Shown here: piece by piece, positions 8,385-33,007 of the stretch
Layout: every line of letters starts with the position of its first letter
Position numbering within the stretch: position 1 is the first letter of the stretch
Assembly (NCBI RefSeq): GCF_902809865.1
Contig: NZ_CADDWH010000001.1
Coordinates: 3,658,001 to 3,722,000 of the forward strand
Length of the DNA stretch: 64,000 nucleotides
Source: Halobacillus sp. Marseille-Q1614
GTDB taxonomy: Bacteria > Bacillota > Bacilli > Bacillales > Halobacillaceae
Reading direction: 5' to 3'
Notes under the pieces: model-generated
Told to the model about the DNA's origin: nothing
Database searches by the model: none
The model's input: only the letters and a program-made list of their open reading frames with translations
Made by a program: the position numbers and the translations under genes

Positions 8385-8389
8385 GCAGG

Positions 8390-8430
8390 CACTTATGCTC
8401 TCAATTTTGAAGAGGGCATAAGTGTTTTAT
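8390..8430 (+). terminator. Terminator after the MDR gene
   Basis: CACTTATGC (8390-8398) pairs perfectly with GCATAAGTG (8415-8423), followed by TTTTATTT. Confidence 0.8.
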
Positions 8431-8668
8431 TTAATATTTGGCACTTTTAAACACTTTGTTGATATTATTTAGAAAAAGCAAGGGGTTCTGCAAGACTTCT
8501 GCTAATAAAAGACGGCCTGTAACCCTGCATAGAGGTCACGATCGTAGAGAAGCAGGAACCGGGATTAAGTTCGGTACATCCTTTACCGATATCGAATGAC
8601 TCCACATGATGTGGTGACGCTTAAAAACGAGCAGACTCTCCATTATATGGCAAATATTTAATAATTTT
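8431..8668. other. Non-coding leader region before the ATP-grasp operon
   Basis: No plausible gene is seen. It holds short inverted repeats (CGGTA/TACCG near 8571-8587 and CCACA/TGTGG at 8602-8614) and an AAAAACGAGCAGACTC motif related to the window's dispersed repeats. Whether any of this is transcribed is unknown. Confidence 0.35.
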
Positions 8669-8698
8669 TTGACTATTCTATAATTTTGAGGGTATAGT
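8669..8698 (+). promoter_or_regulatory. Candidate sigma-A promoter of the ATP-grasp operon
   Basis: TTGACT (8669-8674), 18 bases, then TATAGT (8693-8698), 35 bases before the first start codon of the operon. Confidence 0.5.
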
Positions 8699-8732
8699 TT
8701 TTACATAGCAGTCTCGAGAGGGGAGAGTATCC

Positions 8733-10190
8733 ATGTTGAAAAATTATCAAACAGGGTCTTTTTTCGATGAAATGATGAATCAAGAGGGTAAGCCGAAAAA
8801 TCATTATGAGTCTTTTTATAAGTTAATTGCCGATACTTCTGAAGATGAGTTAAGAGAAAAACATGAGACTGCGCAGCTAAGCTTTTTGAGGCAGGGGATA
8901 ACGTTTACGGTTTACAGTGACGAAGGTGGAACGGAACGAACGATGCCTTTTGATTTCGTGCCGATTATCATTCCGGAAGAACAGTGGAAGACGATTGAAA
9001 AAGGCATGGAACAAAGAATGAAAGCTTTAAACTGCTTTTTGGATGATATTTATAAAGATCAAGAGATTGTGAAGGATGGAATTATCCCTGAAGAACTCAT
9101 TAGGGACAACCCTTATTATTACGAAAAACAGGTGTCCGGATTAGAAATCCCATTGAATAATCATATTTTCTTAGCGGGTATTGATCTGATTCGGGATGAG
9201 CATGGAGAATATCGTGTCCTCGAAGATAACTTACGCAACCCATCCGGCATGTCGTACGTTTTTCAAAATCGCTATGTTATGAGACAAGTTTATCCTGAAC
9301 TGTTCTTCCAGCATTCGGTTCAGTCATTAGAAATTCAATTTAAAGAGCTTCATGGTGCATTGCTCAGTCATGCTCCCGACCATACGAACTCCCCACAGCC
9401 TTGTGCAGTCCTGCTGACGCCGGGAATGTACAATTCGGCTTATTATGACCACGTGTTTTTAGCTCAGCAGATGGGCATAGAATTAGTAGAAGGACGAGAT
9501 CTGGTTGTTAAAGATGATATCGTTTACATGAAAACGATACGTGGATTAAAACGCGTCGATATTATATACCGCCGGATCGATGATGACTTTTTAGACCCGG
9601 AAGCTTTCCGTCCGGATTCGGCTTTAGGAGTATCGGGACTTTTGCGGGCTTATCGTAAAGGGAATGTAGCAATATTAAACGGAATTGGGAATGGAGTGGC
9701 CGATGATAAGGCGATGTACGCTTACGTTCCACAAATGATTCAGTACTACTTGAACGAAGATCCGATTATTAAAAATGTAGATACTTACTTTCTTCGCGAC
9801 CCCGAACAGTTAGAATATGTAATTGAAAATCTCGAAAAGCTTGTCGTTAAGAATGTGGGAGCTTCGGGGGGCTACGATATGCTGATTGGTCCGCACTCTA
9901 CGGAGGAGGAGCGAAGCATGTTCCGCAGAAAGATCATCGAGACGCCAAATCAGTATATTGCCCAGCCGACGATTAAATTGTCTAGAGCCCCTGCCTTTCA
10001 AAAAGGAGAATTCTATCCTTGTCACGTGGATTTACGTGTTTTCGTTATGAATGGTGAGAAAACGCATGTCCTTCCTGGCGGACTATCGCGGGTAGCTCTG
10101 AAAAAAGGTTCTCTAGTTGTTAATTCTTCCCAAGGCGGCGGAGGAAAAGATACATGGGTCCTAACAGAAGGGGGAAATGGCCATGCTTAG
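8733..10190 (+). CDS. Circularly permuted ATP-grasp type 2 protein
   Basis: A 485-residue protein of the CP-ATP-grasp (DUF404/DUF407) family. Family-typical segments are LLTPGMYNSAYYDH (about 225-238), IIYRRIDDDFLDP (about 275-287), NGIGNGVADDKAMYAYVP (about 313-330) and VVKNVGASGGYDML (about 369-382). ATP-grasp enzymes join a carboxylate to an amine through an acyl-phosphate, and this family is predicted to form peptide or amide bonds; no substrate has been shown for this lineage to my knowledge. It is the first gene of a tight three-gene operon with the alpha-E and transglutaminase genes and overlaps the next one. GAGGGGAG precedes the ATG. Confidence 0.92.
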   Translation: MLKNYQTGSFFDEMMNQEGKPKNHYESFYKLIADTSEDELREKHETAQLSFLRQGITFTVYSDEGGTERTMPFDFVPIIIPEEQWKTIEKGMEQRMKALNCFLDDIYKDQEIVKDGIIPEELIRDNPYYYEKQVSGLEIPLNNHIFLAGIDLIRDEHGEYRVLEDNLRNPSGMSYVFQNRYVMRQVYPELFFQHSVQSLEIQFKELHGALLSHAPDHTNSPQPCAVLLTPGMYNSAYYDHVFLAQQMGIELVEGRDLVVKDDIVYMKTIRGLKRVDIIYRRIDDDFLDPEAFRPDSALGVSGLLRAYRKGNVAILNGIGNGVADDKAMYAYVPQMIQYYLNEDPIIKNVDTYFLRDPEQLEYVIENLEKLVVKNVGASGGYDMLIGPHSTEEERSMFRRKIIETPNQYIAQPTIKLSRAPAFQKGEFYPCHVDLRVFVMNGEKTHVLPGGLSRVALKKGSLVVNSSQGGGGKDTWVLTEGGNGHA

Positions 10191-11154
10191 CCGGGTAGCC
10201 GACTCATTATACTGGATGTCGAGAAATATTGAGCGTTCAGAAAACAATGCTAGAATCTTAAGCGCCCAGATGATTCATATGCTTGAGGCTTCCGATCAGA
10301 ATGTATTGGACCGGGACTGGGAAGAGATTCTTGAAATCTGTGCTTCCAAACAGGATTATTATAATCATTACGTACGTCTGAACAGGGATACGATCCTTCA
10401 GTATCTTACGTTAAGCCCGATGAATAACAATGCCCTGCAGAATACGGTTAACTTTGCCAGGGAAAACGCCCGCGCCACCCGTGATATTATTCCGGACGAA
10501 TTATGGCAGATGATTAACCGTTTTTATTTGGAGAAGCAGAGCCAGGTCGATCAGCCGTTTACTCCTCCTGTTATTCAGAGCCACTTAAAAGATGTCATCA
10601 CTATGTCGATGACGTGTCAGGGAATTATCGAATCTACCATGACACGCGGCACCCCTTATGCTTTTATTAAGATCGGTAAATGGATAGAGCGTGCAGAGAA
10701 AACGGCACGCATTTTAAACGTTATTTGTGAAAAAACTCTGCGGGAGAAGAATAGTACAGACTCTCAATCGTATTATTACTGGCTGACGGCTTTGCAAATT
10801 GTCAATGGCTACGATTCATTTATAAAAGACCACCCGCCGACAATGAACCCGCAGGAAGTTCTGACTTTTCTTATTGAAGAAGAAAAATTTCCTCGTTCTA
10901 TTCGCTATTGTGTAGATCATATTTTAGAAACAATTCATAATCTAGAAGCAGGCAAGAGGTCTCATTATTCAGAGGACTTATTCCAGCTGTTAACGGACAT
11001 TAAGGCAGAAATTAACGATACAGATATTTCAGGTATGTCGATGGAAGAGCTAATGGTCTTTCTTGATAGATTCCAGGACAATTGCCACCAGCTCAGCCGT
11101 GTCTTCTCGATGACCTATTATTTAGTCAATCCTGTACGTGCTACTCAATCGTAG
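10183..11154 (+). CDS. Alpha-E domain protein (DUF403)
   Basis: A 323-residue all-helical protein that starts MLSRVADSLYWMSRNIER, the standard opening of alpha-E proteins. That opening and the spacing from AAGGGGG decide for the ATG at 10183 over the ATG at 10177. Its start overlaps the end of the ATP-grasp gene by 8 bases, suggesting translational coupling. Alpha-E proteins are nearly always encoded next to circularly permuted ATP-grasp and transglutaminase-like genes and are thought to work with them, but the activity is not established. Conserved acidic and Arg residues occur in RNIERSENNAR and KWIERAEKTAR. Confidence 0.92.
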   Translation: MLSRVADSLYWMSRNIERSENNARILSAQMIHMLEASDQNVLDRDWEEILEICASKQDYYNHYVRLNRDTILQYLTLSPMNNNALQNTVNFARENARATRDIIPDELWQMINRFYLEKQSQVDQPFTPPVIQSHLKDVITMSMTCQGIIESTMTRGTPYAFIKIGKWIERAEKTARILNVICEKTLREKNSTDSQSYYYWLTALQIVNGYDSFIKDHPPTMNPQEVLTFLIEEEKFPRSIRYCVDHILETIHNLEAGKRSHYSEDLFQLLTDIKAEINDTDISGMSMEELMVFLDRFQDNCHQLSRVFSMTYYLVNPVRATQS

Positions 11155-11175
11155 GGGAAGAAGGAGAGTAAGTCT

Positions 11176-12030
11176 ATGAAGTACCAAATTGAGCACACAA
11201 ACTGGTTCCACTATGAAACTCTCGTTGACCAAAGTATGAATGATATTCGACTTAAGCCGAGGAACGATGAGTGTCAGAGGCTGTTGTCGTATCGAACAGA
11301 GGTCACTCCTGTTTCTACCACAAAGGAGCATACAGACATCTGGGGAAATCACGTGGAATCATTCTTTATTGCTCACAAGCACAATGAATTAATTGTAAAG
11401 ACGAATTCTGTAGTCAGCATACAGAAAAGCCCGCTGATCTATATGCTGAAGTACACGGATCAAATGCGCCGTATCTTTAACTCCCAGCTATTTAATGATC
11501 ACTATCTGCATTATATAAATGAGTCGCCGTATACCTTTTTATATAAAGAACAGGTAGATGAAATTGTTCAGGCTGTTGGGGGAGAAGTGGGTGATCCCCT
11601 TCAGTTTGCCTTAGACCTTATGGGTTATTTAAATGGTTCGATTGCTTATGACGGTACTGCTACTCACGTAGGAACGAAAGCTTTTGAATCATGGCCTTTA
11701 AAAGCGGGTGTCTGCCAGGATTATGCTCATGTCATGCTTGGGGTGCTTCGGGCGAAGGGGATTCCAGCAAGGTATGTCAGCGGCTACTTATATGTAGGCG
11801 AAGACTCCGCATTAGTCGGTGATGCAGCGACTCACGCCTGGGTAGAAGTTATGGTTCCTGGTATTGGATGGCTCGGCTTAGATCCCACGAATAATGTAGA
11901 AGCGCTGGAGAATCACATTCGCATCGGCACCGGCCGGGATTATGCAGATGTCAGCCCACTTCAGGGTGTTTATAGAGGAGGCGGGCAGAAGTCTGATGTT
12001 AAGGTAAGTGTTACTCTCTTAGAACAGTAA
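11176..12030 (+). CDS. Transglutaminase-like cysteine peptidase with Bact_transglu_N domain
   Basis: A 284-residue protein. Residues about 1-80 form the N-terminal domain typical of bacterial transglutaminase-like proteins. The catalytic core has Cys180 in AGVCQDYAHVML, His220 in THAWVEV and Asp236 in GLDPTNN, a complete papain-like triad. Such proteins usually hydrolyse rather than crosslink peptides. It is the last gene of the operon, 21 bases after the alpha-E gene with its own AAGGAGA site. Context suggests that it cuts or trims the product made by the ATP-grasp partner. No signal peptide is visible, so it probably acts in the cytosol. Confidence 0.92.
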   Translation: MKYQIEHTNWFHYETLVDQSMNDIRLKPRNDECQRLLSYRTEVTPVSTTKEHTDIWGNHVESFFIAHKHNELIVKTNSVVSIQKSPLIYMLKYTDQMRRIFNSQLFNDHYLHYINESPYTFLYKEQVDEIVQAVGGEVGDPLQFALDLMGYLNGSIAYDGTATHVGTKAFESWPLKAGVCQDYAHVMLGVLRAKGIPARYVSGYLYVGEDSALVGDAATHAWVEVMVPGIGWLGLDPTNNVEALENHIRIGTGRDYADVSPLQGVYRGGGQKSDVKVSVTLLEQ

Positions 12031-12078
12031 AACAAAAAGAAGGGGATCGGTAGTGACCCCTAAAAGTTAGAGTTTTTA

Positions 12079-12810
12079 TTATGCAGCTGATTGGCTGGTT
12101 TGAGTTCGGTATTGTATGGGACTTAAACCAGCCAATTTTGCTTTTACGCGTTCATGATTATAGTAGTCCACGTAGACCTCGAGCTTTCTTTTAAGCGCTT
12201 CATAAGAAACCAGTTCTTCTCCGTAATACATTTCTTGTTTGAGGATCCCGAAAAAATTCTCCATGGCCGCATTATCTGCGCAGTTTGCTTTCCTGGACAT
12301 ACTTTGAAAGATTTGATGTTTCTTTAATGTTTTCACCCACGTGTTGTGTTGATAATGCCAGCCTTGATCGGAGTGGATGGTTGTCCGGTATTCGGCTTCC
12401 GTTTGAATGGTATCCAGCCGAATGGGCGTATGGAACCTGCGTTTTAATCGATTATGAGCCACTTTCCCGACCGTACCTTTGTACGATTTATACCGGGATT
12501 TACGGGTGGATTTTTCACATATCAATCCGAGCGTACTCATGATCCGTTGAACTTTTTTATGGTTGATGATATACCCCTGGTTTCTAAGTTCGAAGGAAAT
12601 GCGGCGATAGCCATAGGTTCCGTTGTGCTTATGGAAGAGGTTCGTAATCATTTCTTTCCACTCTTTATTCGGATCTTCCTTCTTGAACTGCTTTCTCTGG
12701 TAATGATAAGTGGCTTCAGGAATGTCCACTCTTCGTAAGGCATCTTTTAATTTGAATCCTTCTTTTTTGAGTTCGAATACCAGCGCTGTTTGTGCTTTCG
12801 AGATAGGCAT
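12079..12810 (-). pseudogene. IS3-family transposase OrfB with internal deletion
   Basis: The 243-residue frame keeps the N-terminal HTH-like region (about 60-120, with YGYRRISFELR and NHKKVQRIM), the second Asp (Asp148 in HSDQGWHYQ) and Glu184 in DNAAMENFFG, spaced as in DD35E enzymes. Family members carry about 50-60 residues between the RRFHTP segment and HSDQGW, including the first catalytic Asp in a VTD motif. Here RRFHTP (125-129) runs almost directly into IHSDQGW (145-151). The first Asp is therefore lost by an in-frame deletion, and the protein should be inactive. Confidence 0.85.
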
Positions 12811-13309
12811 TCGGATTCTCCTGAAAAGCTTTTAACTTTTTTAGATAGGAATTCTCTAAACGCAGGAGTTCATTTTCACGTTCTAATTGTTCTTCACGAG
12901 TTAATTCTTTAGCTGATTTGGTTGACTTTTTCTTATGATTTTTTGACATAGAGGGCCGTCCTTTCGCTTTTTCTTGGAGGCCTCCGATCCCTTCCTTCCG
13001 AAAAATGTTGGACCAGTTCGCAATTAACGCAGGGTTGTTCAATTGGAAGGCAATCGCAGTCTCCTGATGAGAAGCGCCTGTCTGTTTCATAAAGTTTAAT
13101 ACATCCAGCTTGAATTGGACAGGGTAGACTTGTTTCGAATGCTTCCTTTTTAAACCTTCTTCTCCGAAGGCTTGATAAGCACGAACCCAGCGTAAAATTT
13201 GAACATCACTAGGGATCGAGTACTTCTTAGCTAATAAAGCGTACCCTAGATGACCTTGGAAGTACTCCGTTACCACCTGTAATTTAAATTTCTCACTATA
13301 CTTTGACAT
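12716..13309 (-). pseudogene. IS3-family transposase OrfA, frame-damaged near the overlap
   Basis: A 197-residue frame with two helix-turn-helix repeats (about 1-55 and 60-115) and a C-terminal leucine zipper-like coil including LERENELLRLENSYLKK, which normally binds the IS ends. A slippery A AAA AAG heptamer lies at 12842-12836, as used for -1 frameshifting to OrfB. However, OrfB sits in the +1 rather than the -1 frame. One lost A in the GAAAG at about 12795-12799 would explain this: restoring it makes OrfA end in KHKQRWYSNSKKKDSN and puts OrfB in the -1 frame. Confidence 0.75.
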
Positions 13310-13428
13310 ACAAAAACACCCCGGTAGTTAGATTATTAACTCTAACTTCCGGGGTGCACTACCTTCCCGGCTTGGGAACCCCTTCTTTTTTAATAATTGG
13401 TTTAATTTAAATGACGTTGTAGAGTAAA

Positions 13429-32656: not shown

Positions 32657-32781
32657 TGTATATAACAGCTTTTTTACCCTGCTGTTTTTAAAAAAAATAA
32701 CTTTTCATTCAATAGGAAGGAAGCCTAATGCGTTGCGGTTAACTTCTTTTTCGTTTATATTAGTAATACAATCGCATATAT

Positions 32782-32928
32782 TTTCCTTCGGGGTCGGGTG
32801 AAAGTCCCAGCCGGCGGTAATGAACCTAGAGTTCCGAGCCCGCGACGGGGAGGCAGCAGCTATGCGTCTCCCCCTGATTTGGTGAATATTCCAAAGCCGA
32901 CAGTGAAAGTCTGGATGGGAGAAGGAAG
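32782..32928 (+). promoter_or_regulatory. FMN riboswitch (RFN element)
   Basis: Conserved RFN blocks are present in order: TTCGGGGTCGGGTGAAAGTC, CCGGCGGTAATG, GAGCCCGCGA, the GATTTGGTGAATATTCCAAA region, and GCCGACAGTGAAAGTCTGGA then TGGGAGAAGGA. It binds FMN and stops rib transcription through the terminator at 33008. Confidence 0.97.
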
Positions 32929-33007
32929 CAGAACGTCTGTGGTACGAATTTTCTGGATTTGTGCCCTTTATTCGGCGTACCTTATTATTTTATTGACTAT
33001 AATAATT

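Follow-up and report, generated by a model that had tools for sequence, protein, structure and literature searches.

We analysed a 64,000-nucleotide stretch of the genome of Halobacillus sp. Marseille-Q1614 (the window; contig NZ_CADDWH010000001.1, positions 3,658,001 to 3,722,000), in which an operon at 8733–12030 encodes a circularly permuted ATP-grasp ligase, an alpha-E protein, and a transglutaminase-fold cysteine hydrolase. The Anbu operon consists of ATP-grasp, alpha-E, transglutaminase, and Anbu genes (PMC6376114, PMC5666114; published work is cited here from excerpts). The window trio has three of these families in identical order with their catalytic residues intact, and no Anbu gene was found in the genome. 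We give about an even chance to the interpretation that the trio is a cytosolic system that makes and breaks an amide bond, is switched on under amino-acid or nitrogen limitation, and resembles glutathionylspermidine synthetase/amidase.

The trio genes and their relatives

8733–10190, + strand: circularly permuted type-2 ATP-grasp ligase, 485 amino acids (Pfam CP_ATPgrasp_2, 6.8e-157)
10177–11154, + strand: alpha-E protein, 325 amino acids, with ER motifs E19-R20 and E171-R172 (PF04168, 9.7e-76)
11176–12030, + strand: transglutaminase-fold cysteine hydrolase, 284 amino acids, with Cys180-His220-Asp236 (Transglut_core, 4.1e-21; Bact_transglu_N, 2.9e-18)

All three open reading frames (ORFs) were intact at the positions given by the initial annotation, and Pfam agreed with the families it had named. 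The Pfam matches far exceeded the curated cut-offs, and none of the three proteins was matched by NCBIfam at E 0.001. The ligase and alpha-E ORFs share 14 base pairs (bp), and 21 bp separate alpha-E from the transglutaminase gene; as far as layout can indicate, this overlap argues for co-expression of the trio.

The transglutaminase core contains the Cys-His-Asp triad of transglutaminase-like cysteine peptidases. Cys180, His220, and Asp236, which had been called intact, are indeed present in the window protein and were kept in all 91 aligned rows (the window protein, 53 unfused and 27 fused relatives, and 10 more distant ones); in the alignment with 3ISR, the three residues are in register. 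The ligase likewise appears to keep its ATP-binding residues, because the modelled ATP-grasp superposes on nucleotide-bound ligases and the conserved candidate ATP-site residues are intact in the alignment. In its predicted structure, the ligase groups with enzymes that link the carboxylate of a peptide or gamma-glutamyl group to an amine or polyamine. Some ligases of that structural group have a partner thiol amidase by which the bond is broken again. A long hydrophobic segment was found in none of the three proteins (largest 19-residue mean, 1.05), and we therefore take the trio to be cytosolic.

A scan of named genomes gave 134 ligase relatives, and the best 80 were kept, with loci spanning up to 9 kilobases (kb) on each side and less at some contig ends. 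The whole trio was kept in 80 of 80, as three genes in 53 and with alpha-E fused to the transglutaminase in 27, and the genes overlap or sit close together. The window ligase falls with those of Halobacillus; among the loci compared, the Halobacillus massiliensis ligase was 93% identical to it. H. massiliensis carries an extra ligase and alpha-E pair directly upstream of its full trio (L003, 6314–8786); this pair is 67% (ligase) and 58% (alpha-E) identical to the window proteins and has no second transglutaminase. No remnant of such a pair was found by blastn in window positions 8385–8732.

The two ER motifs of alpha-E lie in the contexts W-x2-R-x2-E-R (E19-R20) and G-x3-E-R (E171-R172), and both occur in 12 of 12 aligned alpha-E proteins, the window protein included. 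The three shortest alpha-E proteins (222–233 amino acids), from Bacillota with the M14-type hydrolase pairs described below, keep both motifs and lack the C-terminal part. The 27 fusions fall within one 31-row clade of the ligase tree, with a Shimodaira–Hasegawa-like approximate likelihood ratio test (SH-aLRT) value of 97 and no bootstrap. At least three label changes were counted on this quick tree with SH-aLRT support only, and the fusion may have had a single origin. In a model of one fused protein (L042), confidence was mostly high in both domains and low in the linker between them. We rejected the idea that the fusion marks a fixed complex, since the model lacks a rigid interface, and we infer from it that alpha-E and the transglutaminase would partner physically without one.

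In the make-and-break interpretation, the ligase would activate a carboxylate as an acyl phosphate and couple it to an amine, with a small peptide or a peptide/polyamine conjugate as its most likely substrate. Its counterpart would be the transglutaminase-fold protein, a thiol amidase or peptidase acting on the same amide by cutting or transferring it. Alpha-E would hold the two enzymes together or carry the intermediate; such a role would account for the many relatives in which it is fused to the transglutaminase. The initial annotation had proposed that the operon makes and then trims an amide. This proposal was supported in part, in that the ligase fold, the triad, the conservation of the trio in 80 of 80 relatives, and the 27 fusions fit it; the direction of the reaction, the class of substrate, the role of alpha-E, and the regulation in this strain are parts that we infer. 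A role in defence was rejected, as no PADLOC match was found for the three proteins at E 0.01.

Comparison with known systems places the trio near several of them. The window ligase has the fold of the synthetase of glutathionylspermidine synthetase/amidase, but the 485-residue protein matches ligase families only and has no fused amidase domain. That enzyme is bifunctional, and its amidase has a different fold. The candidate amidase of the trio is encoded separately and has a transglutaminase fold, unlike in that enzyme and in trypanothione synthetase-amidase, and neither of these has a counterpart of alpha-E. E. coli YgiC/YjfC are not known to have an alpha-E or transglutaminase partner. YgiC/YjfC are only 10–13% identical to the window ligase and are peptide-spermidine ligases according to the title of a reference. 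The structure of Mfla_0391 from Methylobacillus flagellatus has been solved (3N6X), under a title that gives only a putative function. Excerpts on the Rlo operon of Pseudomonas aeruginosa (PMC12239564) describe a similar combination of ATP-grasp, transglutaminase fold, and peptidase, made up of a RimK-like ATP-grasp, an inactive membrane-anchored transglutaminase, and a secreted aspartic peptidase. The window trio differs from it in its intact transglutaminase triad and in having no protein with a long hydrophobic segment.

Anbu and other partner hydrolases

The absence of Anbu, which the initial annotation had pointed out for the operon, held for the whole genome (3.98 megabases, completeness 99.99%), where the single PF00227 match at E 1 was HslV. 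This protein scored 295 bits to a solved HslV. Its gene lies between hslU and a gene resembling xerC, and a gene resembling codY is found on the far side of hslU (both names were assigned by eye). The search used PF00227 without an Anbu-specific profile. Its sensitivity to Anbu is judged from its match in Synechococcus elongatus, which has Anbu and is not known to have HslV. The stress that the initial annotation laid on the missing Anbu is not borne out as a peculiarity of this operon, because no Anbu gene was found beside the trio in any Bacillota neighbourhood examined. Searches of 88 loci, those of the 80 relatives included, with an Anbu motif gave nothing convincing, and their two matches (L042 and L062) were unlike Anbu by eye.

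We next turned to a sample of 398 Bacillota genomes, which overlaps the 80 relatives by at least one (G169 is very likely L062, Chryseomicrobium aureum). The ligase family was matched in 38 genomes at E 0.001, above the cut-off in 23, and at full length in nine (the window genome and eight others). The other 29 matches to CP_ATPgrasp_2 were partial and weaker, in open frames of about 430–890 amino acids, and these proteins probably form a different group. A phmmer search with HslV at E 1 found no HslV-like gene beside the trio in the eight other full-length genomes, and the window trio has none beside it either. We also re-searched 18 genomes, a selection of those with a second or weak PF00227 match, for hidden Anbu-like genes and inspected two weak matches, neither of which was accepted as Anbu. 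The match in G337 is a CorA-like transporter by eye. The other, in a genome of the window's class (G105), is a proteasome-family-like protein of 222 amino acids (L150, 1474–2142) in a phage-like neighbourhood, and that genome has no CP_ATPgrasp_2 match. Among 117 plasmid records with the ligase, six were examined. Plasmids of Deinococcus, Hymenobacter, and Sinorhizobium carry the trio without an annotated Anbu within 6 kb, and those of Caballeronia, Acidithiobacillus, and Azospirillum have other arrangements. An Anbu-less trio looks like the rule in Bacillota and not like a loss.

Transglutaminases are able to transamidate and HslVU is retained in the genome, as could be expected if the trio served protein tagging, an explanation that we consider unlikely. 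The ligase would then make a peptide tag, the transglutaminase would attach it through isopeptide bonds as a transamidase, and a peptidase would remove or degrade it; that peptidase would be Anbu, the M14-type pair, or, in Halobacillus, a general protease such as HslV. However, PF00227 matches occur in 334 of the 398 Bacillota genomes and the full-length ligase in only nine, and HslV therefore cannot be a specific partner. The tagging and de-tagging idea is older than this analysis and is credited to a 2009 paper in PMC6376114, but neither a tag nor a tagged protein turned up in the literature excerpts.

Four of the nine Bacillota with a full-length ligase belong to the window's class and have no partner hydrolase. 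The other five (L118, L121, L123, L124, and L125) have two adjacent AstE/AspA-like (M14-type) genes right after the trio, of the succinylglutamate desuccinylase/aspartoacylase kind. Pfam AstE_AspA_cat was assigned to all four of the ten proteins that were run, and the remaining six were assigned by clustering and alignment. A profile built from nine of the ten gave 285–468 bits in exactly those five genomes, largely by construction; the tenth protein, which stood outside the profile, still scored 285 bits. Another 35 genomes matched at 1e-10 but at no more than 125 bits, which implies that, in this sample, the subfamily occurs only with the operon. The second member has RGNE in three of the pairs, where the other seven proteins have HGDE, and in these three it has probably lost its zinc; a methyltransferase is fused to one of the three copies. 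In the window genome, PF24827 gave no match at E 0.1, and there are hence no such tandem genes beside the trio. We found no description of this pair beside the trio in the literature, but the 2009 work of Iyer and colleagues, which lay outside the search, may contain one. We read the pair and Anbu, each of which would be a hydrolase added in some lineages, as filling one amide-hydrolase slot differently by lineage.

The neighbours of the trio also bear on whether it forms the core of a dedicated small-peptide or natural-product pathway, which we regard as improbable. Beyond related genera, the trio has no exporter or tailoring family as a recurrent neighbour; the clustering covered ORFs of 90 amino acids or more, and a short precursor peptide would escape it. 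In addition, starvation control suggests a housekeeping function.

Upstream sites and possible nitrogen control

8663–8677, + strand: CodY-box-like palindrome AATTTTTTGACTATT, three mismatches to the consensus, over the -35 hexamer
8669–8698, + strand: promoter-like TTGACT-18-TATAGT, 10 of 12 consensus matches

In the make-and-break interpretation, a shortage of amino acids or nitrogen would switch the operon on, with CodY as the mediator in many Bacilli. CodY-like sites with up to three mismatches were present in 28 of 81 operon upstream regions compared to 33 of 419 control regions from the same loci, and sites with up to two mismatches in 11 of 81 compared to 3 of 419; the upstream rows are related, and these counts are therefore not independent. 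Across 41 shuffled palindromes, the corresponding counts reached no more than 10 and 2. The sites were strongest in Jeotgalibacillus (6 of 6, one a perfect box, with 0 of 35 controls) and were also present in Thalassobacillus (3 of 4), Planomicrobium (3 of 5), Planococcus (6 of 16), and Halobacillus (5 of 11). Six of 21 genera have a CodY-like site in at least half of their species. Promoter-like sites in the region were not in excess (10 compared to 10.9 in shuffles). Of 11 Halobacillus upstream rows, 7 contain the TATAGT part, together with TTGACT in five rows and TCGACT in two.

Consensus motifs for TnrA/GlnR, SigL, and SigB showed no clear overall enrichment upstream of the operon; TnrA/GlnR-like sites with up to one mismatch, for example, occurred in 17 of 81 upstream regions and 47 of 419 controls. 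Such sites were found in 7 of 12 Lysinibacillus and 2 of 2 Domibacillus loci, which lack CodY-like boxes, and they may indicate an alternative nitrogen control there.

Excerpts from published work on other bacteria report nitrogen control. In P. putida growing on nitrate compared to ammonium, Anbu increased by 4.44 log2 and the ligase by 3.99 log2 (PMC8050072). NtrC-dependent changes in B. cenocepacia were -8.2 for the ligase, -9.4 for alpha-E, and -9.4 and -6.0 for two transglutaminase-domain proteins (PMC5491218). In marine metagenomes, the trio domains occur together with urea genes (PMC3597751). The agreement of two unrelated regulators, of which the CodY half is predicted, is the best functional hint available.

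The same control in P. putida and B. cenocepacia, the co-occurrence with urea genes, the CodY-like boxes, and the deacylase-family partners in five Bacillota genomes would also suit amide salvage, in which nitrogen or amino acids are released from isopeptides or gamma-glutamyl amides during starvation and the ligase re-conjugates the products for storage or transport. This alternative seems quite unlikely to us. A ligase that consumes ATP would be a strange centrepiece for a salvage pathway, and uptake systems do not recur next to the trio except among related genera; the transporter-like cluster with the widest spread, an antiporter-like gene (named by eye), covers three genera.

Several observations weigh against the make-and-break interpretation. 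The ATP-site residues were judged from conservation and not from superposed coordinates, and the predicted fusion shows no fixed interface (predicted template modelling score, 0.53). The CodY-like site of the window is by itself at chance level (11 in 64 kb compared to 8.4 ± 2.9 expected) and draws its support from the relatives, 15% of 47 Halobacillus control regions have such a site, and none was found in 12 Lysinibacillus and 4 Paenibacillus upstream regions. According to excerpts of PMC6376114, neither glutamine nor glutamate stimulated phosphate release by the Yersinia ligase, a release that could simply reflect ATP hydrolysis, and none of the other operon proteins interacted specifically with Anbu when it served as bait in pull-downs. 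Excerpts of PMC5666114 report that expression of the Anbu-operon proteins was unchanged across conditions, except for Anbu under nitrogen limitation.

We tentatively consider a broader form of the make-and-break interpretation, which is possible but doubtful. The trio would be a self-sufficient, starvation-controlled module with an exchangeable hydrolase slot, for which NtrC and CodY would have been recruited independently. The slot would be filled by Anbu in Proteobacteria and Cyanobacteria and by the tandem M14-type pair, whose second member sometimes lacks the zinc-ligand motif, in some Bacillota outside Bacilli. It would be empty in Bacilli, where the transglutaminase, often fused to alpha-E, would cut alone. 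If this were true, Anbu would hydrolyse the amide of a single small-molecule or peptide conjugate and would not be a protein-degrading proteasome. Bacilli keep the smallest form of the trio, without a proteasome-like protein to confuse assays, and the trio-bearing salt-tolerant genera are culturable and harmless. The fusion, the M14-type pair, and the CodY signal provide three handles, on the partner proteins, the type of bond cut, and the timing. Anbu and its partner genes were described in 2008–2009, and two 2017 papers, as excerpted, give no confirmed role. The window copy is an ordinary, clean example, marked by an insertion sequence (IS), of this known but unsolved kind, and it is the comparative results on the fusion, the M14-type pair, and the CodY-like sites, more than the copy itself, that raise the significance.

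The downstream end of the operon

12034–12048, + strand: left arm of the native intrinsic terminator (inverted-repeat pair, 93% complementary; folding)
12049–13363, - strand: IS3-family element, outside the operon, splitting the terminator (NF033516; inverted repeats)
13376–13390, + strand: right arm of the native intrinsic terminator (inverted-repeat pair; folding)

The initial annotation had the operon end directly at a terminator. Instead, an IS3-family element of 1315 bp begins 18 bp past the last trio stop codon and splits the native terminator, whose arms are now 1.3 kb apart. Rejoined, the arms fold with -23.1 to -29.0 kcal/mol, depending on how three junction nucleotides are counted, and a comparable intact hairpin is present in two relatives (L007 and L081). 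A consensus terminator scan of the region gave five sites compared to 4.4 in shuffles, which is no excess, and the terminator-like site that it placed at the operon end reads on the - strand. The element leaves the coding sequences of the operon intact, and readthrough toward it is possible.

The element has terminal inverted repeats of 26 nucleotides (81% complementary), and the triplets that flank it (ATC and TTC) form no exact target duplication. Three other genomic copies match it on either side of a gap of about 158 bp, and the window copy therefore seems internally deleted. Loss of Anbu through this insertion was rejected, because a brnQ homologue lies downstream of the trio in 14 of 15 Halobacillus and Thalassobacillus loci; the fifteenth (L004) ends too early for its position to be judged. 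The homologue is at most 1 kb from the trio in 12 loci and about 2 kb away in L008 and L013, with one more ORF in between in L008. Far from the operon, the window contains an FMN riboswitch (32780–32930, 100 bits), its only Rfam match above threshold.

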